A stretch of 64,000 nucleotides of DNA. Origin: Thiovibrio frasassiensis (GTDB taxonomy: Bacteria > Desulfobacterota > Desulfobulbia > Desulfobulbales > Desulfurivibrionaceae). Where the stretch lies: contig NZ_JAPHEH010000001.1 of NCBI RefSeq assembly GCF_029607905.1, forward strand, positions 1 to 64,000, read 5' to 3'. Of the stretch, positions 16,477 through 36,760 are shown one piece after another. Position 1 is the first letter of the stretch; each line of letters opens with the position of its first letter. The notes beneath the pieces are model-generated. The model ran no database searches, was not told the origin of the DNA, and saw nothing but the letters and a program-made list of their open reading frames with translations. Made by a program: the position numbers and the translations under genes.

Positions 16477-18063
16477 TCAGGCAAACATCTGGCCGACCTT
16501 CGCCTTAAAATCATCCTTGGAAAAAGGCTTGGTGATAAAATCCGTCACCCCTGCCTGCCGGGCCAGTTCCGCCTGGGTTTTTTCCGATTCGGTGGTTGCC
16601 ATCAGCACCGGAATCGCGGCCCATTCCGCCTTTTTTCTGATCTCCCGGGTCAGTTCAATGCCATCCATATTGGGCATGTTCATATCGGTGATGATCAGGT
16701 CAAACTCGCTATCTATCTGGAGATAATCAAAGGCCTTTTTCCCATCTTCCACCGTGACCAATTCCATGCCGAGATCAGCAGCAACACCCTTATAGAAAAA
16801 CAACATGGCCTTGGAGTCATCCGCGGCAAGAATGCGTTTCTCTTTGGCTCCGACATCAGCGAGGCTCAAGAACTGAATGTCCTTGGCAGCTTGCTCCCCG
16901 CCGATCTTGGCAAGTTCCGCCCGAAAAGCGCCGATGGCCTCATGATCGCCGGATTTCCGCACGGCGGAAAGCAATGTGCCACGCTGCCCACCATCTTTAT
17001 AGAGAGCGGCAAAGAGCTGTCGGGCGTGGGAGGTAATAAGGGCGGAAAGCACTCGCCCGCTTTGGGCGTCACCCCTGGCAATGGTCTCGTTCAAAACCTT
17101 AACGACCCCGGGGTTGCATTGATGATCAAGGGCGGTCATCACGGCAATGAGCACAAGATCGTCCCCTTCGGCAAGACCATCGGTCAAACCGATCACACTG
17201 CGCATGGAGCTGATCCGGCCCAACGCCTCATAAATGGCAAATTTCAGATTGGCGTCCCCGGCACTTTCCAGATGGGCAACCAGGATGTCGGCGCCCCGTT
17301 TTTTCCCGGTCATGCCGATAACATTGGCCGCCATGATTTTTTCGTCTTTATCCCCGGTTTCAAGACATTTTTCCAGATCGGGCAGGATGTCTTCCCCCAT
17401 TCCGGCAAGGGTGGAGATGACAACCCGCCGAAACGAAGGATTGCCATGATGGATAAAGCCGATGAGAAACCCGGAGGTGGTCTCGACGGGGAAACTGGCG
17501 AGGTTTTCCACCGCCAAGGCGGTACGTAAATCGCATCCGACATCAACGCTCTGAACCTCCCTGCTCTCGGAAACCAGAGTCATCAAAGCATCACAGACTT
17601 TTGGGTCATGCGTACCGGTAAGACCGCGCATGGCCCAGGCAACAACGGAATAATCCTCATGTTTGAGATAAGGCAGCAAAATTTCCGTTAAACCGCCTTC
17701 CTTATAGTTGACCAAAGCCCGAATGACCTCGGAGATCACCTCGCTGTCCGTTGCGGAACCAAGAAGCTTTACCAGGGCATCCTTAAGAAGGTAAGAGCCG
17801 CCGTCGGCAGCCCGACGAATACAAAGAAGACGGACAGCCTCTGATTCATGGGCCAAGCCAGCGATAATCTCCTGCTCCCGCCCGGCAAGCAAATCAAAAA
17901 GGGTATGATACACCATCTCATCAACCGCCTGATCACCAAGGGGGTTGGCATACATATTCAACAGGGCCGGGATGGCTTCCACCAACCTGGACTCCTTGAT
18001 CTCATCCAGACAGATGATCTGTTCGATCATATCTTTTTGAGCAAAATCATTTAAGAGATCCAT
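16477..18063 (-). CDS. HEAT-repeat protein with C-terminal response-regulator receiver domain
   Basis: Residues 1 to about 400 form a helical repeat region of HEAT/PBS-lyase type, with repeating units of about 30 residues such as SATDSEVISEVIRALVNY and LPYLKHEDYSVVAWAMRGL. Residues 407-528 are a CheY-like receiver: acidic pair in AADDS, phospho-acceptor Asp in IITDMNMPNMDG, Thr in MATTE, and Lys in TKPF, so it should be phosphorylatable. It is the last gene of the che operon, preceded by AAGGAG. It may receive phosphate from CheA and act through protein contacts of the HEAT part; output and partner are unknown. Confidence 0.88.
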   Translation of the reverse strand: MDLLNDFAQKDMIEQIICLDEIKESRLVEAIPALLNMYANPLGDQAVDEMVYHTLFDLLAGREQEIIAGLAHESEAVRLLCIRRAADGGSYLLKDALVKLLGSATDSEVISEVIRALVNYKEGGLTEILLPYLKHEDYSVVAWAMRGLTGTHDPKVCDALMTLVSESREVQSVDVGCDLRTALAVENLASFPVETTSGFLIGFIHHGNPSFRRVVISTLAGMGEDILPDLEKCLETGDKDEKIMAANVIGMTGKKRGADILVAHLESAGDANLKFAIYEALGRISSMRSVIGLTDGLAEGDDLVLIAVMTALDHQCNPGVVKVLNETIARGDAQSGRVLSALITSHARQLFAALYKDGGQRGTLLSAVRKSGDHEAIGAFRAELAKIGGEQAAKDIQFLSLADVGAKEKRILAADDSKAMLFFYKGVAADLGMELVTVEDGKKAFDYLQIDSEFDLIITDMNMPNMDGIELTREIRKKAEWAAIPVLMATTESEKTQAELARQAGVTDFITKPFSKDDFKAKVGQMFA

Positions 18064-18178: not shown

Positions 18179-19249
<1,071 letters not shown>

Positions 19250-19756
19250 CTAATCAAATGATCGTGGGATACGTCTCAGCAAAACGTCTCCGGTATGGGT
19301 ATAGAAAAACAGCTTGCAGCCATGCACGCCGCCCACCTTTTCCACCGAGACGGGAACGTGGTAGCGTGCCAAAGCCTCCCGTGCCGCCGTGATATTCATC
19401 GAACCAATGCTCCTGCCATCGGTCATCGGGCCGAAACGGACATCAAGAACATCCGCGCCGCCAAAGATCTTAGCCACCAACCCGGCGTTGGGACACAAAA
19501 CATCGCCGTGGGTGAGAATCTCAACCATGTACCGCACCGAAGTGTCCACAAAGCGAAAGCTGTCCTCGATCTTCAGATCAGAGCGGACCGGCATCACCCC
19601 ATGGCACATGGCGCCGGTTTTCTGTTTGGGACAAAACAGGCACACCGAGACACAGGAGCCAAGAAGGGTGGTGATCAGGGTCGGCTCCTGGGCGACAAAG
19701 AGCTCGCCGGGATGCAGGTTCACCACAGGAAGATCCGTATCCAGAAGGTTCTTCAT
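19250..19756 (-). CDS. cheD: Chemoreceptor glutamine deamidase CheD
   Basis: CheD deamidates receptor glutamines and in some species interacts with CheC. The 168-residue product has the catalytic cysteine in LLGSCVSVC and a histidine in MCHGVMP, with the NAGLVAKIFGGADVL and IGSMN family stretches. Its start codon overlaps the cheR stop by four bases, which suggests coupled translation. No cheC or cheX is seen in the window. Confidence 0.95.
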   Translation of the reverse strand: MKNLLDTDLPVVNLHPGELFVAQEPTLITTLLGSCVSVCLFCPKQKTGAMCHGVMPVRSDLKIEDSFRFVDTSVRYMVEILTHGDVLCPNAGLVAKIFGGADVLDVRFGPMTDGRSIGSMNITAAREALARYHVPVSVEKVGGVHGCKLFFYTHTGDVLLRRIPRSFD

Positions 19757-20637
19757 TTACAACACCGATACACCGCCGCCGCAACCCGTTCCATTCGGTC
19801 GCCTATGCCTTCCAGGGTTTCCGAATGCCCGGTGAAGAGATACCCTTTGGGAGAAAGCTGCCGATAAAATTTTTCAAACAGTGCACACTGGGTTTTCCGG
19901 TCAAAATAGATGATTACGTTGCGGCAAAAGATGAGATCCATCTTCTGCTCAATGCCGAAATCGCGGTCCATAAAATTAAGCCGCTTGAACTTTACCTTGC
20001 GCCGGAGCTCCGGGACAACCCGATGAAATCCCTTGTGCGAACCTTTTCCCCGCATCAAATACTTGTTGCGCAGCATCAGGGAAACCGGGGCCACCACTTC
20101 ATCGGTATAGACCGCCTCTTCCGCCTTGGCAAGCACCTCGGTGCAGATATCCGTTGCCAAAATGGAATAATCAAGGCCCGGATATTTGGAAAAAAATTCC
20201 TCCAGGACCATGGCCAGGGTGTAGGGCTCCTCTCCGCTGGAACAGCCAGCGCTCCAGACCCGAAGGATTTTGTGGGATTGATGGGTCATCCGCTGCACAT
20301 AGTCGGGGAGGGTAATGGTGTTCATCACATCAAAATGCTTTGCCTCCCGAAAAAAATCGGTCTTATTGGTGCTGACCACATCGATCATATGGCACAGCTC
20401 CTGGGCCTGACCATCGGGGCTTAGTACGTAATCGAGATAGGCGGAGAAGGAATCCAGGTGCAGCTGCCGTAACCGCTTCTGCAACCGGGCGGAAAGCATG
20501 GTCTTTTTGATGGGAGGCAGCTTGATGCCGCAGGTTTCGTAAATGAAGGCACTGAAGCGATTAAAATCCCGATCGGACAAGACCGGCGAATGCACGGCCC
20601 TGTCCCCCGCTATCCCCTGATTTCCAAATAATGTCAT
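19753..20637 (-). CDS. cheR: Chemotaxis protein methyltransferase CheR
   Basis: CheR methylates receptor glutamates with S-adenosylmethionine. The 294-residue product has the N-terminal helical domain, the SAM motif VWSAGCSSGEEPYTLAM near residue 125, NLMD-like NFMDRDFG, and FCRNVIIYFD. ATG at 20637 has GGGGAA upstream and is preferred over an extended frame that overlaps cheW. The five MCPs upstream with x-F-E-R-Y tails make this CheR a candidate for pentapeptide-tethered methylation. Confidence 0.96.
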   Translation of the reverse strand: MTLFGNQGIAGDRAVHSPVLSDRDFNRFSAFIYETCGIKLPPIKKTMLSARLQKRLRQLHLDSFSAYLDYVLSPDGQAQELCHMIDVVSTNKTDFFREAKHFDVMNTITLPDYVQRMTHQSHKILRVWSAGCSSGEEPYTLAMVLEEFFSKYPGLDYSILATDICTEVLAKAEEAVYTDEVVAPVSLMLRNKYLMRGKGSHKGFHRVVPELRRKVKFKRLNFMDRDFGIEQKMDLIFCRNVIIYFDRKTQCALFEKFYRQLSPKGYLFTGHSETLEGIGDRMERVAAAVYRCCK

Positions 20638-20665: not shown

Positions 20666-21220
20666 CTATGCTTCCGCGCCGACAGATTCTTCGGGGTTGG
20701 CGGCAACGGAGTGGGTCGAAGCGATGCTGTCTATTTCCCGCAGGGCTGCTTCGCCCTCACTGGCCAAAACTTTGTCGATATCGAGAATGATCAAAAATTT
20801 CTCCTCGCTCTGCCGTCCCATGCCCTTGATAAACTCAGTGTTCAGGTTGGTTCCCATTTTGGGAACAGACTCGATGTCTTCCGGATTCAGATCAAGAACC
20901 ATCTGCACGGAGTCGGTCAGCACCCCCATCTCCACCAGGTTGGCATCCACCTCCAGCTCCACGATCATGATGCAGGTGTTCTTGCAATACTCAATGCTGC
21001 CCATTCCCAGCTTCAAGCCGAGATCCATAACCGGCACCACATTGCCGCGCAGGTTGATAACTCCACTCAGATACTCGGGCATCCGAGGAATCCTGGTCAT
21101 GGTGGTGACATCAAGCACCTCCCTGACCTTGGAAATTTCTATGGCAAACCCCTCCTCCCGAAGCATGAAGGTGAGATATTGCGTGGCCTGCGACTGAACC
21201 GTTTCCTTTTTTGCACTCAT
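20666..21220 (-). CDS. cheW: Chemotaxis coupling protein CheW
   Basis: CheW links receptors to CheA. The 184-residue protein covers the CheW SH3-like double barrel with FAIEISKVREVL, SGVINLRGNVVPVMDL and FLIILDIDKVL. It has a C-terminal extension of about 25 residues rich in acidic and small residues. GGGAG precedes the start. It lies between cheA and cheR. Confidence 0.96.
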   Translation of the reverse strand: MSAKKETVQSQATQYLTFMLREEGFAIEISKVREVLDVTTMTRIPRMPEYLSGVINLRGNVVPVMDLGLKLGMGSIEYCKNTCIMIVELEVDANLVEMGVLTDSVQMVLDLNPEDIESVPKMGTNLNTEFIKGMGRQSEEKFLIILDIDKVLASEGEAALREIDSIASTHSVAANPEESVGAEA

Positions 21221-21300: not shown

Positions 21301-23391
21301 TCAGTTGATAAGAGTGTTATGCTCTTCCTGACGAGCGCATTGCATCACATTGGTCACGTCAAGGATCAGGGCAACATGCCCGTTGCCCAAAATTGTCGAG
21401 CCGGAAAGCCCGGTGGCATGCCGGTACACCCAGCCAAGTGATTTCAAAACCGTCTGGTGCTCTCCCACCACACCGTCAAGCACCAGTCCGAATCGCTCGC
21501 CGTTGATTCGGCTGATCACCATCTGTTCCCGCACAGGTCTTTCTCCGGGAATGGCAAAGAAGTCCCGCAGCCGCACATAGGGCACAAGCTGATCCCGCAC
21601 CGGCAGCATCCGCCGATTATGGAACCTGGCGATATCCTCCATGGTAAGCTCCACACACTCCTCCACCTGGGAAAGGGGCAGAACAAAATGCGTTTCCCCG
21701 GCCTTTACCAGCAGACCGTCAATAATGGCAAGGGTCAGAGGCAACATGATGGTGATCGTGGTGCCCTGCCCCTTAATGCTGTGGGTCACGGAAACTGATC
21801 CCTTGAGGGCGTCAACCGTGCTTTTCACCACGTCCATGCCCACCCCGCGACCGGAGACGCTGGTAACGGTCTTGGCCGTGGACAATCCCGGCATAAAAAT
21901 GGTATTCCATATCTCCTGTTCGCTCGGTTCCGTGTCGGCACGGAACAGCCCTTTTTCCATCGCCTTCTGCCGAATTCTTTCCGCATCAAGCCCCTTACCG
22001 TCATCGGTAACGGTGATGACGACATTGGCCCCGGAATGGTGCGCAGCAAGAGAAATCGTGCCCTTGCGCGGCTTTCCTGCCCGCTCCCGCTCCTCCGGCA
22101 ACTCGATCCCATGGTCGATGCTGTTCCTAATCAAATGGACCATGGGGTCGCCCAGTTGGTCTATCACATTCTTGTCAAGCTCGGTCTCGGCCCCCGCAGT
22201 GACCATGACCACTTCCTTGCCAAGCTCGGCGGAAAGATCCCTGACCAGCCGCTTGAATTTCACAAAGGTGGTACCGATGGGCAGCATGCGGATGTTGAGC
22301 ACACAATCCCGCAGTTCGGCGGTAAGCCGCTCCACCTCTTCCACCGGCTCGACAAGCTCGGATTCCTTGTGCTGACTGGCAACCTGGGTAAGTCGGGCCT
22401 GGGTGACAACCAATTCACCCACCAGATTGATGAGCTGATCCAGTTTTTCCGAGGCAACCCGGATACTTTCCGCACCCTTGGCAACCGTCGCCTTTTCCTT
22501 GGATTCCCGCACCAGTTTCTGTTCGGCAAGCGCTGCGTCGACACTGGTGCGCGAGACAAGCTTCTCTCCAACCAGCAGTTCCCCCAGAGGCTTCTGCCGG
22601 TCAAGCACCGTTTTCAAATCCTCGGCGGAGATTTCCCCCTGTTCCAAGAGGATCTCGCCAAGCTTCTTGTGCTCTTCCAGCTCCTCCTCCCCTTCCACGG
22701 CAAGGACCGTCACCGTAACCCTACAGCTGGACTCGGCAAACACCAGCACATCCTCGATGGCGTTGACTCCCTTGTCGGTGGTAAGGAGGATGAGAGCGCC
22801 GCCATCCTCCTGCTCCGCATCCATAAAGGCCGTGCTTTCCCCGAGCGTGTCAAGCTCGGCAAGCAACGCTTCCATGGTACTGCCGCCGACAAAAAACTCA
22901 GGGGTCGGCTTAACGGAAATGCGATAATGGCTGCGCCTTCCCAGGGTGGGATCTTTTTCCTCTTCAGAAACCTGCGGAGCAGAAGCCGCTTGCTTGGCAA
23001 GCGGCATGCCGCCGCCGACCAGAACCTGCAATGCAACAATGATCCGCTCCCCCTCGGTGGGGTCCGCTTCTCCACCGCCGGTCGCGGCATCGAGCAGGGC
23101 ACGGATATGATCCCTGGAGGCCAGGGTCAAATCGATCAACTCCGTGCTCACCGGCACCGACCCGTCCCGAACCTTGTCCAGCGCAGTTTCCACATGATGG
23201 GTGAATCCTGCAATGTCATCAAAGCCGAACATCGCCCCAGAGCCTTTGATCGTGTGCATCGCCCGAAAAACGCGGCTCACTATCTTGAGATCGGCCGGAT
23301 CCTTCTCCAACTCCAGCAGAGAGGTTTCCAGCTCCTCAAGGAGTTCACCCGCCTCTTCTCGAAAAATTTCAGCGTATTCAGAATCCGCCAT
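21301..23391 (-). CDS. cheA: Chemotaxis histidine kinase CheA
   Basis: CheA is the receptor-controlled kinase. The 696 residues contain an HPt domain with phospho-acceptor His46 (AMHTIKGSG), a P2-like region near 150-230, then an unusual segment near 242-295 that looks like two degenerate MshEN-type repeats (KKLGEILLEQGEIS and LGELLVGEKLVS). These are followed by the dimerisation helices, the ATP-binding domain (N-box LIRNSIDHGIE, G-box SGRGVGMDVV) and a C-terminal CheW-like domain. It lies directly after the six MCP genes and before cheW. Confidence 0.96.
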   Translation of the reverse strand: MADSEYAEIFREEAGELLEELETSLLELEKDPADLKIVSRVFRAMHTIKGSGAMFGFDDIAGFTHHVETALDKVRDGSVPVSTELIDLTLASRDHIRALLDAATGGGEADPTEGERIIVALQVLVGGGMPLAKQAASAPQVSEEEKDPTLGRRSHYRISVKPTPEFFVGGSTMEALLAELDTLGESTAFMDAEQEDGGALILLTTDKGVNAIEDVLVFAESSCRVTVTVLAVEGEEELEEHKKLGEILLEQGEISAEDLKTVLDRQKPLGELLVGEKLVSRTSVDAALAEQKLVRESKEKATVAKGAESIRVASEKLDQLINLVGELVVTQARLTQVASQHKESELVEPVEEVERLTAELRDCVLNIRMLPIGTTFVKFKRLVRDLSAELGKEVVMVTAGAETELDKNVIDQLGDPMVHLIRNSIDHGIELPEERERAGKPRKGTISLAAHHSGANVVITVTDDGKGLDAERIRQKAMEKGLFRADTEPSEQEIWNTIFMPGLSTAKTVTSVSGRGVGMDVVKSTVDALKGSVSVTHSIKGQGTTITIMLPLTLAIIDGLLVKAGETHFVLPLSQVEECVELTMEDIARFHNRRMLPVRDQLVPYVRLRDFFAIPGERPVREQMVISRINGERFGLVLDGVVGEHQTVLKSLGWVYRHATGLSGSTILGNGHVALILDVTNVMQCARQEEHNTLIN

Positions 23392-23435: not shown

Positions 23436-25103
23436 TTAATAACGTTCAAATTCATTGGAATCATCCAGGGAGATTTTCTTCCCACCCTCTTTCCTGCTGC
23501 CGGCTTTCTCCTCATGGTAGCCTGCTCTTTTGCCAGCGGGCAGGGCCAGGGCGACGCGTCCAGGCTTCCGGTAGCCGCTAGCCCCCCCGGCGGCAATATG
23601 CGTTTTCACCCCGGCTTCATCCACCTTAAAGAAACCAATGGCATCCTGAAGCTGAGCTGCTTGGGCGGTCAATTCCTCGCTGGTTGAGGCCATCTCCTCG
23701 GCAGCCGCACTGTTGGACTGGATAACCTGATCAAACTGGTCGATGGCCTTGGTATTTTCCTCAATCCCCCGAGCCTGCTCATTGGAGGCGCCATCTATCT
23801 CTTGGACCAATTCGGCGGTTTTCTGGATCTGGGGGATAATATCGTTGATCAGCCTGCCGGCGTTGGTAGCGGTGGCCACACTGGCCGAAGCAACCCCCTT
23901 GATCTCCTGGGCCGAAACCTGACTGCGTTCCGCAAGCTTGCGCACCTCGGCGGCGACCACAGCAAAACCCTTGCCATGTTCCCCGGCCCGGGCCGCCTCG
24001 ATGGCGGCATTCAAAGCCAACAGATTGGTCTGGCGGGCTATCTCCTCAATAAGCTCGATCTTCTCGGCGATATGCTGCATGGCTTTTACGGTTTCTGCGA
24101 CCACCTGGCCACCGGCCTCGGCATCAATCGCGGTCTTACTGGCAATGGCAGAGGTTTGCCGGGCATTGTCGGCGGTCTGGGCAACAGTGCTGGCAAGTTC
24201 CTCCATGGAAGAGGATATCTCCTCGACCGAGGCCGCCTGCTCGCTGGCGCCCTGGGAAACCTGTTCCGAGCTGCTGCTCAACTCCTGGCTGCCCGCCGCG
24301 ACCTGATCCGCCGCACTACGCACATTCTGGATAATCTCCCGGAGTTTCAGTACCATGGCTTCCAAGGCCTCGGCCAACTGCCCTATCTCATCCTCCTTGT
24401 TGCCTTCCATCTTGGTATGGGACAAATCGCCATCGGCAATCCGCTGGGCAATGCCGACCATCTTGCCAAGGGCCGAAGCGATCCTGCCGGAAAAAACAAA
24501 AGCCAGGATTATGGTAAAAACAATAATGGCGCTGCCCAAAATAATACTGACAATATTGGCCAGCTTGATGGTGGAAAGCGCATTGGCAATACCGTTTGTC
24601 GCCTCATTCTCCATCTCCTCCTCAATCCGGTCCACCCGCTTGCCAAGCTCCTCGGCTGCTGCGTCGAACTCATCCATCGCCTTGGTAGCCAGAGCCAAAT
24701 CCCCTTTCACATAGAGCTCTGCGGTGCGCTTGCCTTTTTCAAAAAGTTCCCCGAACCACTTCTCGGCCTCCTCAATCTCGCTGCGATTTTCAGGATGAAG
24801 CGCCTTCAGCGCTTCGGCATGTTCCCGAAAGCGGACGGCATGCTCCGCGGCATCCTTGTGGGCTTCGGCCAGCGACTCGGCGCTGCGCACCGCGCTGGCG
24901 TCGGTGAATATTTCCTGCACCAGGAGCATCTCAAGCTTGATGTTCATGGCCAACTCGTTGCCGCCATACCCCTTGTCCCTGGCCTCTTCCACGCTGCTGG
25001 TCACCCTGCCCTGAAAAAAGCCGTTCACCAAGAGCTGGATCACCAGAACCAGACAAACCCCGCCAAAAGCGAACAGCATCTTGTTTCTGATATTCTTTTT
25101 CAT
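23436..25103 (-). CDS. Methyl-accepting chemotaxis protein, one HAMP, four-helix-type sensor
   Basis: This 555-residue receptor has an N-terminal membrane segment, a periplasmic helical region of about 150 residues (4HB-like), a second membrane segment near 190-210, one HAMP domain and a full cytoplasmic hairpin with the tip [21 protein letters not shown] flexible basic linker leads to the C-terminal tail NEFERY, which fits the x-[FYW]-x-x-[FYW] tether consensus. Its first 17 residues are identical to those of the MCP at 34355-36760, showing a shared origin. It is the receptor gene nearest to cheA; AAAGGAG precedes the start. Confidence 0.96.
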
Positions 25104-25139
25104 TTACGCTCCTTTAGGGTGTAAAATTTTACCCCCTAC

Positions 25140-26783
25140 CTAATAACGCTCAAAATCCTTGTGATCATCCAAGGCTATGCTCGCTCCTGCAGGAGAAGTC
25201 TGCTTGCCACCGCCTGAATATCCCTGCTTCGCTTTCTTTATATGAGACAAGGCCAAAGGAGCTTTCGCTAATCTCTGGCCCCCCGAACCGGAGACAATTG
25301 CCTGATGCCTTTGCCCTCCTGCCTCATCCAACTTGAAAAAGGCGATTGTTTCCAACATCTGAGATGCTTGCGCGGTCAATTCTTCGCTGGTGGAGGCCAT
25401 TTCCTCGGCCGCCGCACTGTTGGACTGAATAACCGAATCAAACTGCTCGATGGCCTTGGAATTCTCCTCGATTCCTCTGGCCTGCTCGTTGCTGGCCGCA
25501 TCGATCTCCTGCACCAGCTCGGCGGTTCTCTGGATCTGGGGAAGTATTTCGTTGATCAGCCTACCGGCATTCATGGCAGTGGCCACGCTGGCGGTGGCTA
25601 CGCCCTTGATCTCTTGGGCCGACACCTGGCTCCGCTCTGCAAGCTTGCGCACCTCGGCAGCCACCACAGCAAAGCCCTTGCCGTGCTCCCCGGCCCGAGC
25701 CGCCTCAATGGCGGCGTTCAAGGCCAGCAGGTTGGTCTGGCGTGCAATCTCTTCGATGAGTTCGATTTTTTCCGCGATATGCTGCATGGCTTCCACGGTT
25801 TCCGCCACCGCCTTGCCACCGGCTCCGGCATCGGTCGCGGTCTTGGTGGCAATGGCTGAGGTTTGCCGGGCATTGTCAGCGGTTTGGGCCACGGTACTGG
25901 CAAGTTCTTCCATGGACGAGGAGATCTCTTCCACGGAAGCGGCCTGCTCGCTGGCCCCCTGGGAAACCTGCTTAGCGTTGACGGTGATGCGAGCAAGGGC
26001 ATCGACCATTGTCTTCATAGCGGCCATGACGCTGCTGGTATCGCCGGTGGCAAGGGTAAGGTTGCTGGAAAAATCGCCGATCGCCACCATATTGGCGACG
26101 TCACGGACATCCTTGGGATCGGCGCCAAGCTGGCGCAGAATCGAACGGGTGAGGAATAGAGCAATGCCGATACTCAACAGAAGCGCACCCCCGCCCAGGC
26201 CGAACATGAGATTACGGGAGGTGTGGAAAACATTGGTACCCTCCTCGTAACGAGCGGCATTACGATCCAGATTGTGCGCTATCAGGTTGTCAAAATACCC
26301 CTGCACGGCGCGTTCCGCCGGGCCGCCCTCCTTGGTGCGTATCTGCTCTGCCTCGGCATCCTTGCCGGTGGTGGCAAGCTCGATGATCTTGTCATTCAGG
26401 CCCCGCAAGGTCTTATTGGCTTCCTTAATCTTGACTATCAGTTCATGGCCCTTGGTATCGTTGGCACTGGTCAGCTCCTCCATCTTTTTCAGGCTCTTTT
26501 CATACCCTTCACGAAACTTGGCGATCCGCCCCTGGTACTCCTTTTGTTTTTCCGGACTGGAGGTCAGGATAATGTTACGGACATTGATGGCGATATTGGC
26601 GATTTCCTTGTCCGCGCTGCTGAGTTCCGTTATCCGCACCGAATTGACTTCAACAAGCACCCTCATCTCGCCCATAATCTTGGCCATCCCGGTGGCGCCG
26701 ATCCAGATCAGGACCGCCATGATCACCACCAACACCGAGAAGCCAAAGCTCAATCGCTTGCTAAGATTCATGTCTTGTAACAT
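25140..26783 (-). CDS. Methyl-accepting chemotaxis protein, one HAMP, shortened HAMP-signalling junction
   Basis: The 547-residue receptor has two membrane segments (near 12-32 and 190-210), a four-helix sensor, one HAMP domain and the signalling hairpin. Compared with its neighbours it lacks about 18 residues between the HAMP and the QVSQGASEQ segment. The C-terminal tail is DFERY. ATG at 26783 is chosen since AGGAG precedes it; the frame is open upstream. Confidence 0.95.
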
Positions 26784-26897
26784 TTTCCACTCTCCTGTCC
26801 CTATGGTTTCCTGCTTTGCAAATTTGTCCCCGTGACGACAAAGCGACAATGGATTCCCCCCCGGATCATATTGTGCTCAGATGGAAACATATTTCCC

Positions 26898-29090
26898 TTA
26901 ATAACGCTCGAAGTCTCCCTCGTTGCCCTCAGGCAAGGTAAGCTTTACCCCCGTCCGCGTTTGCTGTGCCCCGCCCTTCTTCGCATGTGTGCCGGACTGC
27001 GGCAAAGGACGGCGTTCTTGCACCTGCGGTTTGCTTTGTGCTCTTACTCTCTCAGTCTTGAAAAAAGCGATGGCTTCCTGCATCTGCGCTGCCTGGGCAG
27101 TCAGTTCCTCGCTTGTGGAAGCCATCTCCTCGGCCGCGGCACTGTTGGACTGGATCACCTGATCAAACTGCTGGATGGCGCGGGCATTTTCATCAATGCC
27201 ACGGGCCTGTTCGTTGCTGGCCGCATCGATCTCATGCACCAATTCGGCGGTTTTCTGGATCTGGGGCAGGATATCGTTGATCAAATTGCCCGCATTGGTG
27301 GCGGTTTCCACGCTAATCGAAGCCACCCCCTTGATCTCTTGGGCCGACACCTGGCTGCGTTCGGCAAGCTTGCGCACCTCGGCGGCGACCACGGCGAAGC
27401 CCTTGCCGTGCTCGCCGGCCCTGGCCGCCTCGATTGCGGCGTTCAAAGCGAGAAGATTCGTCTGCCGGGCAATCTCTTCAATCAACTCAATCTTTTCGGC
27501 AATATGCCGCATGGCAGAAACGGTTTCCGCCACCGCCTTTCCGCCCTCAACGGCATCAGCGGCCGTCCTGTTGGAAATAGCCGCGGTCTGTCGGGCATGA
27601 TCGGCAGTCTGGGCCACAGTGCTGGCCAATTCCTCCATGGAAGCGGAAATCTCCTCCACCGAAGCGGCCTGCTCGCTGGCTCCCTGAGAGACCTGCTCCG
27701 AGCTGGAACTCAACTCCTGACTGCCGGAGGCGACCTGATCGGCCGCTGCCCGCACATCGCTGATAACCTGCCGCAATTTTTGTATCATCGCGGCCAGTGA
27801 CCTGCCCAGGGCGTCTTTGTCGGAAAGGAGTTTGACATCAACCATGAGGTTCCCGTTAGCTATCATTTCCGCGTTGGCTGCGGTCAGCTTCAGGTTCTCG
27901 ACCATCTTGGCAAGAGATTTCCCCAGAACGTCTTTGTCGGACAGCACGGTCACCTTGACATCAAGATCACCCAAGGCAATTTGCTCGGCCATCTGCGCGG
28001 TCTTCTGGAGGTTTGCCACCATGTTTTTCATGGCCACCAACATCTGCGAAACCTCATCTTGCCTATCCACCTTTATATCTACGGTCAGATCGCCCTCGGC
28101 AATCCGATCAAAAGTGACGACGGCGCCATTAATGGGGAGAAACGCTTTGCGAATAAAGAAAAAGAGAGCTGCAAGGATGATGGCCGCAATCATGAGATTG
28201 ATGCCCAGATTCGCGATTAATTTTTTTTGCAAATCGTCCACAATATCCTGCACGTCGTCCATGACCAGAATAGAGCCGATTTCCTGTCCCTGATAATCCG
28301 TCAACTGCAACGGGTAGGTAATAAAGAGCTTCCCGTTGATCTTATATTCATCTTTACCGGCCATATAGGTGCCGATGATGCTCTTGGCAAGCTCAGAGGA
28401 AGTTACATAAAAAACCAGATTGTCGGCGAGGACATCGGTCTCCTTCTTCTCTGGACGTTGTGCTTTTTTAAATACCTCGGGGCGGATGCCTATGCCATAT
28501 TCTATGCCAAATGTTTCTTTGAGATTGTTCAGTAAGCCACTGATTGAGCCGCCGAATTCAACCGTACCGACATAGTTGTTTTCATAGGAAACAGGAAAGA
28601 CCACACGTAAGCCAGGGCCACCGACACCGACTTCGAGGCCGACAACGTTTTTTTTGCTCTGATTGGCCTCGACAACCGTACTGCGAAAAGCGGAAAGATC
28701 ATCCCCGAATTTTTCGGGCTTGTGCAGCCTTAAAAAACTGGTGGCCGGGGGGGTGTGGAATTGGAACTGGGCAATATCGTATTCCTTCTTGAGCTTTTCA
28801 TTATATTTCGCCAAATCCTGAACCAAGGCTTCTCTATTGCCTTCGGCAAACAAACGGACGACCTCTTTGTTCATCGTCAAGGTTTCCATGGCCAGAGAAA
28901 GATTCTGGAGTTGCTGCGCAAGAGAATTATTAAAGGTAGCCCTTACCCTGGCTGCCCGGGTCTTTTTTGCCGAAGCCAAGGTCTTGTCGAAATCGACATA
29001 CTGCTTGCCCATATTAAACAGAGTCATCAGCAAAATTCCGCTCAGGACGAGAACTAAGATTTTCGCTTTTATGCTGATATTTTTAAACAT
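26898..29090 (-). CDS. Methyl-accepting chemotaxis protein with dCache-like sensor and three HAMP repeats
   Basis: The 730-residue receptor has a large periplasmic domain (about 35-300) with the [20 protein letters not shown] segment, typical of the dCache_3 group of sensors. After the second membrane helix come three HAMP-like units spaced 41 and 39 residues apart ([24 protein letters not shown]), then the signalling hairpin. The tail ends GDFERY, preceded by a GVKLTLP segment shared with two other receptors here. GGAGGG precedes the start. Confidence 0.95.
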
Positions 29091-29207
29091 GCAGCCCTCC
29101 AGGAATAGCTTTGGGAAATTCTTCGCGCAAAGATCTTTGCTTATAGAACCAGCTCATTTGTCCCCACACCCCAACAACCATTTAACTCAGAGAAATCACA
29201 GAACAAA

Positions 29208-31007
29208 TCAGTGTTCCAGCATATACTTCTCATCGCAGATCTCATCATCCTGCTCCGGCAAAACATTCTCCCCTTCATTGTGTAATTTGAAAAATGAGAT
29301 TGAGTCCTGAAGATGTGAAGCCTGAGCGGCCAACTCCTCGCTGGTCGAGGCCATTTCCTCGGCAGCCGCGCTGTTGGCCTGGATTACCTGATCAAACTGT
29401 TGGATGGCGCGGGCGTTCTCATCGATGCCCCGAGCCTGTTCGTTGCTGGCCGCATCGATTTCATGAACCAGTTCCGCGGTTTTCTGGATCTGCGGCACGA
29501 TCTCATTGATCAGCCTGCCCGCATTCCCGGCGGTTTCCACACTGGCATTGGCAACCCCCTTGATCTCTTGGGCCGAAGCCTGACTCCGTTCGGCAAGCTT
29601 TCTTACCTCCGCGGAAACAACGGCAAAGCCCTTGCCGTGCTCTCCAGCCCGGGCCGCCTCGATGGCCGCGTTCAAGGCCAGCAGGTTGGTCTGGCGGGCG
29701 ATCTCTTCAATAAATCCAATTTTTTCCGCAATATGCTGCATGGCAGAAACGGTCTCCAACACTACTTTCCCGCCCTCAACCGCATCGGCAGAGGCTTTGG
29801 TGGCGATAGCCGCGGTCTGGCGGGCATGATCGGCGGTCTGGGCCACGGTGCTGGCCAACTCTTCCATGGAGGCGGAAATCTGTTCCACCGCTGCAGCCTG
29901 TCGGCTGGTCCCCTGCGAAACCTGCTGCGCGCTGCTGCTCAGTTCCTGACTGCCGGAGACAACCTGATCGGCCGCACTCTGCACCTCCCCGATAATCTGG
30001 CGGAGCTTTTGAAATAAAGCGGACAGCGACTTACCAAACATATCATTCTCAGAAAGGAGCTCCACCTTTGAACCAAGATCTCCTTTTTCGATTTGCTCTG
30101 CCTTGACCCGTAAATTTTCCACCATCTTGGCCAAGGATTTACCCATAAGATCTTTCTCGGAAAGAATATTCACCTGCACATCCAAATTGCCCAAGGCGAT
30201 CTGCCCGGCCATTGCCGCCGTTGCCCTGAGATTTTGCACCATACTGCTCATGGCCACACACATCTGGCCAATTTCATCCCCGCTGGTACTGACGATTTGC
30301 ACATCAAGATCTCCCTTGGCGACCCGCCGCACATTGGCGACCGCCTGCTTTAGGGGCTTGATCATGCGACGAACGGCGTAATAAACGATAGCGCCAATAA
30401 GCAGAACCACTACGGCGGCGAATCCGACGATGCTCATGCCAATGCGCAACAGAGAATCCTTTTGCCTCTGCTGAGCCGCTGCGATCACCTGATTGCCGTG
30501 GGCAACAGTCTTCTCGATGTTTTTCTCAACCGCCGCGTAATCCAGACCGATGACCACGGAGCCAACCTTTTGCTCTCCGGCCACAATTTCTTTTTCCAAG
30601 ATATTTTTGGCAGAAAAAGCTTCAGGCCTGACACTTGAGGTGGTGATAGGCTTCCCGTCCTTGTCATGGAAGACGATGAAGGCAACATCCGGATCATTGG
30701 CCGCGCTCTGGACGATTTTCTCGAGAAAGGCGTACTCATAGTTGAGGATAAGATCCTGGCCAACCCTGGCCAGCATGTCGGCAAAGGATTTCCCTTTCAG
30801 AACAAGATTCTGCCGCAACAATTCTTCTTGTTCTTTCTGCTGCTCTTTCAGGGTGTTGACAAAGGCATCCCCCTGAACAGTCAAAGCGTTATGCACCGAA
30901 GCATTGATCGCCACGGTCATGCCGAGCATGAGCAGCAGTACCACTGCGACAATGGCAAGATTTAATTTTGCCGCGATTCCCATATTCCCAAATCTTGCTT
31001 TCAACAT
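29208..31007 (-). CDS. Methyl-accepting chemotaxis protein with single-Cache-like sensor, three HAMP units, no tether tail
   Basis: The 599-residue receptor has a periplasmic region of about 165 residues with [15 protein letters not shown], resembling a single Cache domain, then three HAMP-like units ([24 protein letters not shown], the last about three residues shorter in spacing) and the signalling hairpin. Unlike the other five receptors it ends in an acidic tail (EKYMLEH) with no x-F-E-R-Y motif. GGAGTG precedes the start. Confidence 0.94.
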
Positions 31008-31300
31008 GCGCCACTCCTAGTCCGTCCTGCACCATCGAATATAACTTCCTACAACTACCGACATTAAATAATTATACGCATGGGAAAGAAATCAGGTCAA
31101 AGGATAAAAAGCAGAGCACTCGCTCGGTCGCCTTGAATCAAAAAAACAAAAAACATCACTATAAGCGATCTCAACTCAAGAGCGCTTATAGAACAACCAG
31201 AGACGTTTGGGACGACAATGCGAGACCGAATCAGAACCGTACAAAAAAATGCCCTCACGAGGAGGGCATCTCGAATAACACTTCAAAACAACAGAAGAGA
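31008..31300. other. Intergenic gap between two MCP genes
   Basis: This 293-base gap holds the terminator at 31243-31269 for the upstream receptor gene and should hold the promoter for the MCP that starts at 31007. I found no convincing promoter consensus and no gene. Confidence 0.6.
31243..31269 (-). terminator. Terminator after the poly-HAMP MCP gene
   Basis: On the minus strand ATGCCCT and AGGGCAT form a 7-bp stem around a 7-base loop, followed by a run of T residues. It is 32 bases past the stop codon of the gene at 31301-33424. Confidence 0.85.
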
Positions 31301-33424
31301 TCAATAACGCTCGAAATCGCCATCATTGCCGCCGATTGGCAGGGAGAGTTTCACCCCTTTCCCCTTGGGGGCTGCTATTTTTGCCCCAGCCGGACTAGCA
31401 GTAACCGACATGGGCCGCCCCTGCGGACGGGGACTGCCTTCACCATCCACCTTGAAAAAACTAATGCTCTCCTGCAACTGAGCCGCCTGTGCCGTAAGTT
31501 GCTCGCTGGTGGAGGCCATCTCTTCGGCAGCCGCGCTATTGGCCTGGATCACTTGGTCAAACTGCTGGATGGCGCGGGCATTTTCGTCAATGCCCCTGGC
31601 CTGCTCGTTACTGGCTGCGTCTATTTCATGGACCAGCTCCGCCGTTTTCTGGATCTGCGGCACGATCTCATTGATGAGCCTTCCGGCACCGGAAGCCGTT
31701 GCCACACTGGCACTGGCAACCCCCTTGATCTCTTGGGCGGAATGCTGACTGCGTTCGGCAAGCTTCCGTACCTCGGCGGCGACTACGGCAAAACCCTTGC
31801 CGTGTTCTCCGGCCCGGGCCGCTTCGATGGCGGCGTTCAAGGCCAGCAGGTTGGTTTGCCGAGCGATCTCCTCAATCAACTCGATCTTTTCGGCAATATG
31901 TTGCATCGCCACCACGGTTTCCTCCACCGCCTTGCCGCCCTCCACGGCATCGGCTGCAGCCTTGGTGGAAATGGCTGCGGTCTGCCGAGCGTGATCAGCG
32001 GTTTGGGATACGGTACTGGCCAGTTCTTCCATGGCGGAAGAGATCTCCTCCACCGCAGCCGCCTGTTCACTCGCTCCCTGGGAAACCTGCTGAGAACTTC
32101 CACTCAATTCCTGACTGCCCGCTGCAACCTGATCCGCAGCCATTCGCACATCATGGATGATAGCCTTAACCTTTTCAACCATGGCGGACAGAGCCAGACC
32201 AAAGGCATCCTTGTCGGAATGCACTCGGATCTTCACGGTCAAATCGCCGCCGGCAATTTTCTCGATATCGTCCGCCATGTGCCTGAGGTTATCGATCATT
32301 TTAACCAGGGCCTTGCCCAGCACGTCTTTTTCTCCAGGAGTAAAATCAAGGGAAAGATCCCCGAGGGCAATCTCCTCCGCAAACCTGACCTTGGCCCGCA
32401 GACTTTGCAGCATCTTCTGATGGGCCTGGCCCAAGACATCCTTATCCGATAACAGCTCCACCTCGAAATTGAGATTGCCGAGAGCAACCTCTTCTGCCTC
32501 TTTGGCTGTATTCCTCAGGCTCTCCACCATTTTGGCCAGTGCCTTGCCCAACTCGTCCTTCTCGGAAAGGGTCTGGACCTTAACCTCCAGATCACCCAGG
32601 GCGATCTGCCCGGCCACCCGGGCTGTGGCCTTAAAGTTTTCCACCACCTTAGCCATGGCGCCTAGCATGGCACCCACCTCATCCTTCCGATCCACCTGAA
32701 TCTGCAGTTCCGTATCACCAAGGGCAAGACGCTCATTCACCTCCAACGCCCTAGCCAGAGGAACGGTTATATTTCTGCTGACCAGCAGGGCGAGCAGGAT
32801 TGCAATACAGGCGCCACCGCCGATCACAGACGCCAGCATGATCACCGCCACATTATAGGTCCGGACAGCATCCGCCTGTGCCTTCTCGATATAGGTACCA
32901 TTGAGGTCCTGCAGTTTGTCGATGATGCCCCGCATCTCCTCGAACCGAGCTTTTGCCTGCCCCAAGGTCAGATCCAAGGCAAGGTTTCGCCCCTCGCGGG
33001 TATCCTCCACCCTGCCGTTGACAACCTGACGGGAAATAGTCTGCCAAACGGCAAAAGACTTATCAAATTGAGCCAGCAGCTCCTTTTCCTTGGGCGTCTG
33101 GGCAAGCGCCTTGTACTTACCCATCCGTTGGACGACCTGGCCGAGATTTTCCTCATACTCCTTAACCAGCTGCTTAAAAACATCCGTTTCGGTACTGGCA
33201 AAAATCATTGACCGTTCGGCCACGAGAAGCTGCTGCAGATCCCGGTCAGCCGAAAGCAGATAATTATTGGCGGGCATCCTCTTTTCAGAGATATCAAGGA
33301 GATTTTTATCGAGTTGGCTCAGGCCAACATAGCCTCCTCCACCGATAACGGCCATGAACAGGATCATTACGGTAAAACAAAGAGTAAGCTTGGACGCGAC
33401 CTTCATATCAGACAAGCGGATCAT
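31301..33424 (-). CDS. Methyl-accepting chemotaxis protein with five HAMP repeats
   Basis: The 707-residue receptor has a four-helix-type periplasmic sensor (about 35-190), a second membrane segment near 193-215, then five HAMP-like units whose conserved G-[DN]-[TL] motifs fall near residues 236, 277, 316, 355 and 393, a period of 39-41. The signalling hairpin follows. The C-terminus ends GDFERY after a basic linker with GVKLSLP. GAGG precedes the ATG at 33424. It appears to have its own terminator, so it may be transcribed with the small secreted protein upstream. Confidence 0.95.
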
Positions 33425-33481
33425 TACAGAAACCTCGCAAAATGTTGATTAGCAGTGGGGGCACCATACTCGGCCGACCAG

Positions 33482-34045
33482 TTATTTCAGCTTGTCCATG
33501 TCAATACCGATGGTCATGGCACCGATCACTGCTGCGCCATCCTTGACAGGCACGGATACCTGAACAGTATAGGCCTGGGTGCTGTCATCGAACTTAACGT
33601 CGCCAACATGCACCGCCCCCTTGCCCCCTTTGTAGGATTCAGTGAACTTCGGCTCGTCACCCTGCCAATAGTCGGATGTTTTATCGCTCATGCAGACATT
33701 GGCGCCAAGGTTATCCATGACAAAAAGCTCCGCATAATAAGGCGCCGATTTCCGAATCTCCTTAAGCCGTTTGCCGCAAGGATTGTCCATCAGAGCCTTC
33801 ATGTAGTCTACGACCCCAGGAGTAGCCATCCATTTGACATCCTTCTCCTTAATTTGGGCAAGGGTCTTACCCTTGGCATTTTCCGCCTTCACCGCCTGAA
33901 CAATTGCCGGATCCGAGCCCAATTTCACCAACTCTGTGTTGGCCAGATCAATAACCTTCTGCGGAGCTTTTTCCGCGGCAAAAACGCTTCCGGCAGTCAA
34001 CATCACAGCAATCCCGAACACACTTGCAACGATTATTTTTTTCAT
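33482..34045 (-). CDS. Secreted PDC/Cache-like sensor domain protein
   Basis: This 187-residue protein begins with a clear signal peptide (MKKIIVASVFGIAVMLTAGSVFA, cleavage after AxA) and has no other membrane segment. The rest resembles a single PDC/Cache sensor: YYAELFVMDNLGANVCMSDKTSDYWQGDE and a later beta strand region with YTVQVSVPVKDGAAVIGAMTIGIDMDKL. Such a free periplasmic Cache domain among MCP genes could act as a ligand-binding partner for a receptor, but this is inference. ATG at 34045 has AGAGGAAG upstream. Confidence 0.82.
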   Translation of the reverse strand: MKKIIVASVFGIAVMLTAGSVFAAEKAPQKVIDLANTELVKLGSDPAIVQAVKAENAKGKTLAQIKEKDVKWMATPGVVDYMKALMDNPCGKRLKEIRKSAPYYAELFVMDNLGANVCMSDKTSDYWQGDEPKFTESYKGGKGAVHVGDVKFDDSTQAYTVQVSVPVKDGAAVIGAMTIGIDMDKLK

Positions 34046-34354
34046 GACATCTTCCTCTTTTTCAATAAGGGTTAGAAAGAAAAAACGTTTCACCAACGGC
34101 AGCAAGCCCCCCTGCAACCAAACAGCCTTGCCTACGATTCACAATCCGCCAAAACAAGACAACGGATAGCGATCCATAAAACAACGAAGACATCTGCTAA
34201 TTTTCTACAAAAACATCAGAGAACAACAATGATGGAATTGACTATTCGTTAGTATAGGCTGGGAGAAAAAAGAAAGTCAAAAAAAAAAGAGGGGCAACAC
34301 CATAGAGTGCACCCCTCCCTTGCAACCAACCTTTATTTTGAAAAACAAAAAAAC
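34046..34354. other. Intergenic gap upstream of the secreted Cache protein
   Basis: This 309-base stretch has the terminator of the upstream MCP gene at its right side (34279-34318). The left part should contain the promoter of the secreted Cache-like gene, but I see no convincing -35/-10 pair. No gene is apparent. Confidence 0.6.
34279..34318 (-). terminator. Terminator after the PAS-containing MCP gene
   Basis: On the minus strand GAGGGGTGCAC and GTGTTGCCCCTC form an imperfect stem, followed by ten T residues (34279-34288 read as A on the plus strand). It lies about 37 bases past the stop codon of the MCP gene. Confidence 0.85.
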
Positions 34355-36760
34355 CTAATACCGCTCAAAATCCCCTTCCCCGCCAGCAGGCAGGGAGAGC
34401 TTGACACCTTTACCTTGCAAAGAGGTCTTTTTCGCTCGCGGGGCCGGCAAAGGCAGAGATCTCCCCGGCTGACGCACCTTGACCTCGGTATCCACCTTGA
34501 AAAAAGCAATGGTTTCCTGCAGATGGGCGGCCTGTGCGGTCAACTCCTCGCTGGTGGAGGCCATCTCCTCAGCGGCCGCGCTATTGGATTGAATCACCTG
34601 GTCAAACTGCTGAATGGCCCGGGCGTTCTCATCAATGCCCCGAGCCTGCTCGTTACTGGCGGCATCGATCTCATGGACCAGCTCCGCGGTTTTCTGGATC
34701 TGCGGCACGATCTCGTTGATAAGCTTGCCGGCATTGGAAGCGGTTTCCACACTGGCACTTGCAACCCCCTTGATCTCCTGGGCGGAATACTGACTTCTCT
34801 CCGCAAGTTTCCTCACCTCGGCGGCAACCACCGCAAAGCCCTTGCCATGTTCCCCGGCCCGGGCCGCCTCAATGGCGGCATTCAGTGCCAGCAGGTTGGT
34901 CTGCCGTGCAATCTCCTCAATCAGCTCGATCTTATTAGCAATGAGCTGCATGGCTGCCACGGTTTCCACCACTGCCTTGCCTCCATCCACGGCATCGGCA
35001 GCGGCCTTATTGGAAAGCGACGCCGTCTGCCGGGCATGGTCCGCAGTCTGCGCCACGGTACTGGCTAACTCTTCCATGGAAGAAGAAATCTCCTCCACCG
35101 AGGCCGCCTGTTCGCTGGCCCCCTGTGAGACCTGCTGGGAACTGCTGCTCAATTCTTGACTGCCAGAGGCAACCTGATCCGCGGCGCCGCGTACATCGGT
35201 GATAATCTCTTTGAGTTTTTCAACCATGTCCTGCAAGGCCTGAATCAAATCATCCTGGGCGCCGCGCTTTTTCAGTTTTACCAGCAGATTCCCCTCTGCT
35301 ATCTCGCGAGCCGCGCCGGTGATCTCGTTCAAGGCGTCGATCAATGCGCCCACGGCCGAGCCTATGCCGTCAAAAATCTGTTTCACCGGCGCGGTATCGG
35401 AATCAGCAGGCTCGGTATCAATTGCCAGCGAGATATCGCCTTCGGCGATCTTTTTGAGACTTTCGACCAGCTTCTGTGTTTCGATGGATTGATAATTCGC
35501 AATTTTTTCCGCCACCCGCGCAGCTTTCTTAACCGCGGTCTGATCAGTCACCACCTCAAAGGCGCCAATGATTTTACCTTCTTCATCACGAAGAGGCGTG
35601 GCACTGTAAGTAATATCAAGATCCAAGTTTCCTGGATGGGCATCTGTTTCAGAAGTAGCATCCTGGGCACTCCTCATCGCCTGGCCGCAAGCACAACGCT
35701 CGGTCTTGCAATCCGAGGTTTTGAAGTGATCAAAACATTTGGTCCCGACCAACTGGGCCTGAGTCTTGGCGCCGACCTTAGCGCCCAGTTCGTTCATGTA
35801 CTGGACATTAAAATCATTATCGATGATCATGGCCGGAGTTGGCATACTGTCCAGCAGTCCCACCAACCTGGACATGGTATTGTTGATTCCTTCGACGATC
35901 TTTTTAAAATCGCCCTGGTGTTGGGCCGCATCGGCGCGGATGCTGAGCTTGCCTTCCATTGCCGCCCGGGAAACCACGGCAACCTCCTTGGACACAGAAT
36001 TAATCGCCGCCACCATTTTTGCCATGGCGCCCTGAAGGACACCAAACTCATCGGTGGCAGTGGTATCGATCCGAACCCCGGTGTTCCCGGCCGCGATTTG
36101 CTGGGCAACACCAATCAGCGTCCCGAGTGCCGAAGCGATCCTCCCGGAAAAAAGCCAAGCAAGAATCAAAGTGAAGAGGATAACCCCAAGCGAAAGCCCC
36201 CCCCCGATCATATTATTCATCTGGATCGCATCCATGGCTCCCTGCATGGCCGCGACGGATTCAGCCTCCATCTTCCTCTCGATTTCGCTGATGCGGCTAT
36301 GAATTTCATCGGCGTAGGCATCTACCTCGGCCATGGACTTGTTTCCGAGTTCCGGCCCCCCTTTGATATACTGCCCTGCCATCCAGACATTTTTTTCATA
36401 AAATTTACTGAAAGAGTGGTCCACCTCCTCCAATTGTTTTTTCTCGCCGGGATATAGCTCCATCAATTCCTGAATATGCTTATGAAAAAGATTGGCCGAA
36501 TGTTCAGCCTTTTTGAGACCGTCATTTAATCCGTCAAGCCCCCGAGTCGCCGAAATGTCGGTAATCCACAAGGCCACATCCGACAAGTCGTACTTAAGGT
36601 TCATGGTTAACTCATTTCCGGCATAGCCCACATCTCGGGCATAGGTCACGGAGCGAACCACTCTGGCCTGAAGAAAAATATTCAGGACCAACTGGAACAA
36701 CAGCAAAACACAGACCCCGCCAAAGGCGAACAGCATTTTATTTCTAATGTTTTTTTTCAT
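34355..36760 (-). CDS. Methyl-accepting chemotaxis protein with cysteine-containing PAS domain
   Basis: The 801-residue receptor has an N-terminal membrane segment identical at its first 17 residues to the MCP at 23436-25103, a four-helix-type sensor, a second membrane segment near 185-205, a HAMP and HAMP-like units, a PAS domain at about 300-410, further HAMP-like units ([16 protein letters not shown]) and the signalling hairpin. The PAS region holds four cysteines at 342, 351, 356 and 358 that may bind metal or sense redox state. The tail is GDFERY after GVKLSLP. It is the first gene of the receptor series. Confidence 0.95.

Follow-up and report, generated by a model that had tools for sequence, protein, structure and literature searches.

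A chemosensory cluster lies on the minus strand, at 16-37 kb, of a 64,000-nucleotide stretch of Thiovibrio frasassiensis DNA (contig NZ_JAPHEH010000001.1, positions 1 to 64,000; the whole stretch is called the window here). It comprises six genes for methyl-accepting chemotaxis proteins (MCPs), a small sensor-like protein, cheA, cheW, cheR, cheD, cheB and a HEAT-repeat/receiver protein. We found that five of the six MCPs end in a pentapeptide x-F-E-R-Y, that all six belong to receptor class 34H, and that a second, class-wide motif precedes the tails. The explanation that we prefer, with a probability of about 0.7, is that these are class 34H receptors of one chemosensory pathway, that their C-terminal linkers carry a two-part docking segment, that tail codes help to separate this pathway from another one in the genome, and that the tail-less receptor is modified with the assistance of its neighbours.

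We began from a sequence-only reading of the window, in which five MCPs had been noted to end in x-F-E-R-Y beside a cheR and a cheB. Its coordinates and sequences proved correct: the ends are NEFERY, KDFERY and three times GDFERY, and Pfam matches identified CheR and CheB in the same cluster and on the same strand as the MCPs. The tails match the x-[FWY]-x-x-[FWY] criterion given in the available part of PMC7390727 in five of the six MCPs. The sixth, MCP 29208-31007, does not match; as the sequence-only reading had stated, it has neither the pentapeptide nor the GVKL segment described below, and it ends EKYMLEH. Among the non-MCP stop-to-stop frames of at least 250 residues in all examined loci, many of which are no genes, 14 of 1231 (1.1%) end in x-[HFYW]-x-x-[HFYW], and none of the 62 such frames in the window does. 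The observed five of six far exceeds this chance rate, but the six MCPs are paralogues and not independent of one another.

The tails could be alike merely through recent paralogue copying or gene conversion, and the signalling domains of the five tailed MCPs do share 79-88% identity with the signalling domain of the tail-less MCP. We consider this very improbable. The tail codons vary synonymously (TTT/TTC, GAA/GAG, CGT/CGG) and are followed by three different stops, the linkers ahead of the tails differ in length and sequence, DNA identity over linker and tail was not seen among these genes, and similar tails occur in several families of the phylum. The synonymous differences and the drifted linkers point to selection on the tail peptide.

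To follow the tails beyond the window, 58 related genomes were scanned at the DNA level with a loose tail pattern, which in addition tolerates S at the R position and W at the stop (genomes and loci are numbered G and L below). The scan gave 57 matches in 23 genomes, three of them with TGG where a stop was expected; controls with the pattern reversed and with scrambled codon order gave seven matches each. Of 30 matches taken as loci, 26 terminate a recognised MCP frame, and the remaining four are two non-MCP frames (L079, L100), an MCP split by an assembly gap (L080) and a short frame like an MCP end (L089). A second pattern, F[EDA][DN]F, likewise terminated an MCP frame in 26 of 30 loci, the rest being two short MCP-end-like frames (L112, L134), a PilT-like protein (L109) and an unassignable frame (L123). 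The short frame of L089 (G015:C15), in which an MCP was not recognised, carries both motif and tail (GTKIALDNEKDFERY) and is perhaps a broken MCP gene. The protein of L109 (G032:C13), PilT-like by eye, ends PSEFEDF and so resembles class 36H receptor tails, which may be chance. An apparent tail-less MCP-CheW fusion in G053 (L080, L159) was rejected, as the sequence contains a run of N and the frame beyond it reads GVKLAI...EFERY.

The tail type was found to follow the receptor class. In alignment, MCP 31301-33424 has seven residues fewer per arm than Tsr, and all six cluster MCPs align alike, which places them in class 34H. One of the dispersed MCPs of this genome needs no gaps when aligned with Tsr and is a class 36H receptor. 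Cluster-type receptors have 64 residues between the first methylation helix and the hairpin; in the dispersed type, as in Tsr, there are 71. The genome has 18 MCP places (19 matches, of which two share a frame), with 11 full MCPs and one fragment outside the cluster. Five of the dispersed full MCPs end DEFENF, DDFEDF, ENFTDF, EEFENF and DDFEDF, one ends DFVDFGAAA and the other five lack such a tail; the dispersed 36H receptors thus carry a second tail code, F-x-[DN]-F. Among 149 distinct C-termini, every R/K-type tail with a measured arm (79/79) stands on an arm of 64 residues and every D/N-type tail (25/25) on an arm of 71, as in Tsr, with no cross-over; for 29 C-termini, 16 R/K and six D/N tails among them, no arm length could be obtained. 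Wherever the class was determined, the tail code agreed with it. As most loci from other genomes had been chosen by tail patterns, this comparison tests class against tail type and not tail frequencies; receptor class and the pre-tail motif were not among the selection criteria.

The MCP fragment of this genome (G000), at L058:11077-11619 (about 316 kb), is 180 residues long, lacks the hairpin, retains an intact EEFADF tail and adjoins the second cheA. Flagellin-domain matches lie at three places in G000 (288 kb, 1399 kb, 1938 kb). The second che cluster is some 20 kb away from one of them and may therefore be the flagellar one.

We then examined CheR, whose beta-subdomain had been named as the place to look for a tether site. 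The alignment of the window CheR with Salmonella CheR (1af7/1bc5; E 1.2e-50) extends through the NWETF-binding beta-subdomain. Five of the six contact residues are conserved (R187, G188, G190, G194 and R197), and N stands in place of Q182 (loop NKYLMRGKGSHKGFHRV); the contact list comes from the accessible portion of PMC2577667, and the numbering was placed on the alignment by us. An AlphaFold2 model of this CheR, built from a 12-sequence alignment, had a mean predicted local distance difference test score of 52, with values below 40 in the beta-subdomain, and was not used. The genome encodes a second CheR, with the loop KKYFQKGVGSSDGYVKV. The K-for-R contrast between the two CheRs is weak. 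Since residue 187 is variable, the steadier differences lie around it: L-M in place of F-Q before the site, and H-R-V in place of V-K-V after the loop.

A tree of 73 CheR sequences, rooted at the midpoint, separated 27 sequences with the Salmonella and the second CheR from 46 with the window CheR (local supports 0.94 and 0.86). Four CheRs on the Salmonella side have an MCP in the locus, all with F[EA]DF tails. On the window side, 34H MCPs accompany 31 CheRs in their loci, and in 29 of these loci one or more tails are of the form F-[EQ]-[RKN]-[YF]; the two exceptions are L159, with its assembly gap, and L167, whose MCP ends GRVEG and retains GVELDL. L164 additionally has an EFTDF receptor on the opposite strand. 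CheRs 85-91% identical to that of the window are encoded in L001-L009 and L011, in metagenome-assembled genomes named Desulfobulbaceae, Desulfurivibrio and Deltaproteobacteria. Because the tail consensus, the pentapeptide-type beta-subdomain and the sorting of tail type with receptor class and, in loci that contain both, with CheR clade agree, the FERY tails very probably tether CheR. By homology with the NWETF-CheR pair, x-F-E-R-Y would bind the beta-subdomain of the cluster's CheR and hold the enzyme near the methylation sites of its own receptor and of array neighbours. The penultimate residue of the tail (R/K in 34H, D/N in 36H) and the CheR beta-loop differences would then help to keep the two pathways apart. 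For CheB, the consulted sections of PMC7698151 give no known sequence signature of tail binding.

Several observations speak against so simple a pairing. R187 is K in 12 of the 14 genomes with an NKYLM[RK]GKG loop, and [KR]-S-[KR]-D replaces G-x-G in many 34H-type CheRs encoded next to receptors with FEKF/FERY tails; the contact-residue rule consequently fails in its simple form. Loops of the [KR]-S-[KR]-D kind, without both glycines, stand beside FEKF/FERY-type receptors in L197, L205, L211, L217, L221, L239 and other loci. G057 has two FERY receptors with a best CheR match of 47% identity (this genome is 83% complete), and G017 has a 51% CheR match with no match in the tail scan. The choice of loci by tail scan biases residue frequencies at the selected positions. 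Co-occurrence within the genus is confounded as well, because CheR and the FERY receptors sit in one cluster. The window-type CheR was found in 13 of 17 genus genomes (split between two contig ends in G016) and FERY matches in exactly the same 13, while F[EDA][DN]F matches, with MCP identity confirmed for part only, were found in all 17; this pattern shows that the cluster is lost as a unit and says nothing on binding. Outside the genus, the tails read FEKY (G028, G041), FKEY (G039, G049) and GFERY (G052, outside the scan pattern).

The second motif lies upstream of the pentapeptide. The sequence-only reading had described a GVKL[ST]LP segment in three of the tailed MCPs. The segment is present in those three, but it is not peculiar to them: the other two tailed MCPs carry the diverged forms GKKISLD and GASIALD, and all belong to a class-wide motif, G-x-x-[LI]-x-[LM]. 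Within 30 residues ahead of the tail, this motif occurs in 54/54 tail-bearing 34H receptors of the own family (shuffle mean 2.2, maximum 10) and in 44/47 of other Desulfobacterota families (shuffle mean 1.3, maximum 7), where the three misses read IHLNM, VHLDM and VDLIL. Among the 35 tail-bearing receptors that scoring assigned to 36H, two have it, but the score also assigns truncated 34H ends to that class (e.g. L078); in the cleaner, arm-based count it is found in none of 25 D/N-tailed 36H receptors. A different segment, [IVL][IVLF]P[FMLT], is present in 22/30 36H tails vs 0/101 tail-bearing 34H tails. The gap in G053 and two DFERM tails were entered as 'no tail' in the motif and arm-length counts, and the two motif matches among the seven 'no tail' receptors are these DFERM variants. 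An earlier, wider form of the pattern matched 97/101 34H tails, vs 4.4 in shuffles, and 0/30 36H tails.

In Pseudomonadota, the motif and the pentapeptide were found apart. Twelve plasmid records were sampled from 1641 that matched, and ten were searched whole for MCPs. In eight alphaproteobacterial records, six sampled receptors show the seven-residue gaps of the 34H type. The 34H-like receptors from alphaproteobacteria number 18, from six records; 11 of them have the motif (shuffle 0.3; e.g. GFALDMSMGGPDADDADFRESA), and ten of these 11 have no second aromatic. Four further receptors have GFEFSL, GFQFDL, GFDFQL or GFEMML, and three have no form of it. Plasmid-borne alphaproteobacterial 34H receptors of L254, L256, L257, L259, L268, L284, L290 and L304 carry GF[AV]LD[LM], followed by an end in SA, AA or RG that lacks the second aromatic. 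Low-scoring plasmid receptors had the motif in none of 25 cases. Each element occurring without the other, the two can be lost independently.

Could the motif and the pentapeptide form one extended CheR-binding element, in which the motif would form a strand next to that of the pentapeptide on the beta-sheet of CheR? The two occur together in nearly all sampled tail-bearing Desulfobacterota 34H receptors and are both absent from all five tail-less orthologues considered below, and the alternating hydrophobic pattern would fit a strand. Their separability in both directions in Pseudomonadota argues against it, as does the spacing between motif and pentapeptide aromatic, which is five residues in two window receptors and lies between six and 15 for 42 of the 44 held-out tails. 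On balance we regard a single extended element as unlikely. A plainer alternative is that the pentapeptides are ordinary tethers, as in Geobacter 34H receptors, and that the upstream segment is inherited linker with no separate function. All pentapeptide features agree with the available text of PMC2577667, and gammaproteobacterial 34H receptors manage with the pentapeptide and no motif. This account is weakened because an unselected linker would not be expected to retain the motif, which has been kept in the other Desulfobacterota families and in most of the alphaproteobacterial receptors despite drift in linker length and composition; we judge it still less probable than the extended element.

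Our preferred explanation takes G-h-x-[LI]-x-[LM], mostly 5-15 residues upstream of the pentapeptide, as an independently kept docking site, whose presence in alphaproteobacterial 34H receptors without the final aromatic suggests that it may act separately. A functional second docking motif is somewhat more probable than the contrary. Its partner would most likely be a Che protein of the same pathway. That it docks something other than CheR, namely CheB, CheD or a localisation or proteolysis factor, is the strongest of the specific alternatives, though we hold it only tentatively. The separability of the motif from the pentapeptide favours it; several alphaproteobacterial tails also end in AA or SA, and the alphaproteobacterial receptor McpA of Caulobacter is given as a ClpXP substrate in the portion of PMC8973945 at hand. 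CheB is encoded in 33/33 loci that have CheR and a 34H MCP and whose stretch reaches CheB, a few of these loci overlapping. CheD, by profile search, is present in 25 of these 33 and missing from eight, which makes it a weaker candidate, although in those eight genomes it could be encoded elsewhere; it also adjoins the second CheR.

A functional reading of the motif has to reckon with counter-evidence of its own. The pattern was fixed post hoc, after inspection of the data. A stricter matrix built from the own family reached p<=0.05 in 24/47 held-out tails (2.4 expected) and in 3/18 alphaproteobacterial tails (0.9 expected), and four gammaproteobacterial records gave the motif in 0/6 34H receptors, with the aromatic pair in 6/6. 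The matrix also scored the tail-less orthologue of G003 at p=0.03, a chance-like match, and was dropped as a definition of the motif, being too narrow for the held-out tails. The broader proposal is that 34H receptors in at least two phyla share an undescribed motif, G-h-x-[LIF]-x-[LM], which would serve as a separate docking site and, together with the R/K-versus-D/N code, would mark a pathway's receptors for its enzymes; we give it an even chance. A description of such a second tail motif was not found in the open-licence literature with the few motif spellings tried, nor was a mention of it found in the accessible part of PMC2577667.

The tail-less receptor appears to be conserved as such. 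Orthologues of MCP 29208-31007, with sensor parts 78-79% identical, are present in G003, G007, G011 and G016; all four are tail-less and none matches G-x-x-[LI]-x-[LM], so that the tail-less state is conserved and not the outcome of a fresh frameshift. A frameshift origin was rejected also because the downstream stretch holds no remnant of a tail in any frame. Three methylation-like decapeptides are kept in MCP 29208-31007 and all four orthologues. Mixed arrays require receptors of the same class, and adaptational assistance by a tethered enzyme is established for E. coli. MCP 29208-31007 combines the class of its neighbours with methylation-like sites and the lack of a tail, as an assisted receptor would, and it is probably modified by the enzyme tethered to tailed neighbours. 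The sequence-only reading had gone further and let it depend on them for adaptation; such a role of the neighbours is plausible, but 'depends' exceeds the evidence.

The positions of all features are given in the table below. Two further proteins of the cluster deserve mention. A 211-residue protein (33482-34117), encoded between two MCP genes, has an apparent signal peptide by eye and weakly matches PF22673, an MCP-like PDC sensor domain, below the cut-off (24.3 bits; cut-off 27); it may be a free-standing periplasmic sensor module. The protein encoded at the cluster's end (16477-18063) joins HEAT repeats to a receiver domain at its C-terminus, and close relatives stand after CheB in L001-L007, L009 and L011. 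Because no free CheY was seen among the minus-strand frames listed for the cluster, this protein may be the output protein of the pathway. MCPs 23436-25103 and 34355-36760 have a common N-terminus, the latter with an additional PAS domain, which perhaps reflects a duplication with domain gain.

Table. Features of the chemosensory cluster (positions in the window)
Feature	Position	Strand	Basis
MCP, HAMP and PAS_4, class 34H, C-terminus GDFERY	34355..36760	-	Pfam, alignment
Terminal pentapeptide DFERY of MCP 34355-36760	34358..34372	-	
Pre-tail motif GVKLSLP of MCP 34355-36760	34388..34408	-	
MCP, 4HB_MCP_1 sensor, class 34H, C-terminus GDFERY	31301..33424	-	Pfam, Tsr alignment
Terminal pentapeptide DFERY of MCP 31301-33424	31304..31318	-	
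Pre-tail motif GVKLSLP of MCP 31301-33424	31337..31357	-	
Tail-less MCP, class 34H, neither pentapeptide nor pre-tail motif, C-terminus EKYMLEH	29208..31007	-	
MCP, dCache_3 sensor, class 34H, C-terminus GDFERY	26898..29090	-	Pfam, alignment
Terminal pentapeptide DFERY of MCP 26898-29090	26901..26915	-	
Pre-tail motif GVKLTLP of MCP 26898-29090	26931..26951	-	
MCP, 4HB_MCP_1 sensor, class 34H, C-terminus KDFERY	25140..26849	-	Pfam, alignment
Terminal pentapeptide DFERY of MCP 25140-26849	25143..25157	-	
Diverged pre-tail motif GASIALD of MCP 25140-26849	25167..25187	-	
MCP with HAMP, class 34H, C-terminus NEFERY	23436..25103	-	Pfam, alignment
Terminal pentapeptide EFERY of MCP 23436-25103	23439..23453	-	
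Diverged pre-tail motif GKKISLD of MCP 23436-25103	23463..23483	-	
CheA: Hpt, dimerisation, HATPase and CheW-like domains	21301..23391	-	Pfam
CheW	20666..21220	-	PF01584, 118.9 bits
CheR, 294 residues from ATG at 20637; in-frame TTG start at 20706	19753..20637	-	Pfam
CheR beta-subdomain loop NKYLMRGKGSHKGFHRV, aligned to the NWETF-binding segment of Salmonella CheR	20017..20067	-	
CheD	19250..19756	-	PF03975, 61.4 bits
CheB: receiver and methylesterase	18179..19240	-	PF01339, 231.3 bits

How enzymes are matched to receptors in bacteria with several chemosensory pathways is an open question, and this one genome offers two tail-CheR sets, a tail-less receptor among five tailed ones and a second motif of peptide size. 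According to the available text of PMC7390727, pentapeptides are carried by about 10% of chemoreceptors and by 17.66% in Desulfobacterales. The closest known systems are the 'Type 2' che clusters of Geobacter, for which the accessible part of PMC2577667 describes 34H receptors with EFEKF tails, a CheR group of their own and class-specific pairing. Like the window cluster, they combine class 34H with several tailed MCPs beside cheR (a group B CheR there), a basic residue ahead of the terminal aromatic, some untailed MCPs and a CheR distinct from the 36H-associated one; they differ in that the window tails read FERY and not EFEKF, and that the 36H code of this genome is of the DFEDF and not the DWKEF type. 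The NWETF ends of Tar and Tsr in E. coli and Salmonella, as given in PMC7390727, share a C-terminal x-aromatic-x-x-aromatic after a flexible linker and a homologous CheR, but these receptors are of class 36H, with W at position 2 and T before the last aromatic. In the McpB/CheR2/CheB2 system of P. aeruginosa, as covered by the sections of PMC7698151 at hand, a tail likewise pairs a receptor with the enzymes of its own pathway; there it is a single receptor with a W-type tail and measured binding. Since Geobacter 34H receptors with EFEKF tails have already been described, FERY tethering as such is ordinary. The present analysis adds to it the pre-tail motif, the second tail code and the second CheR, and the conserved tail-less receptor.

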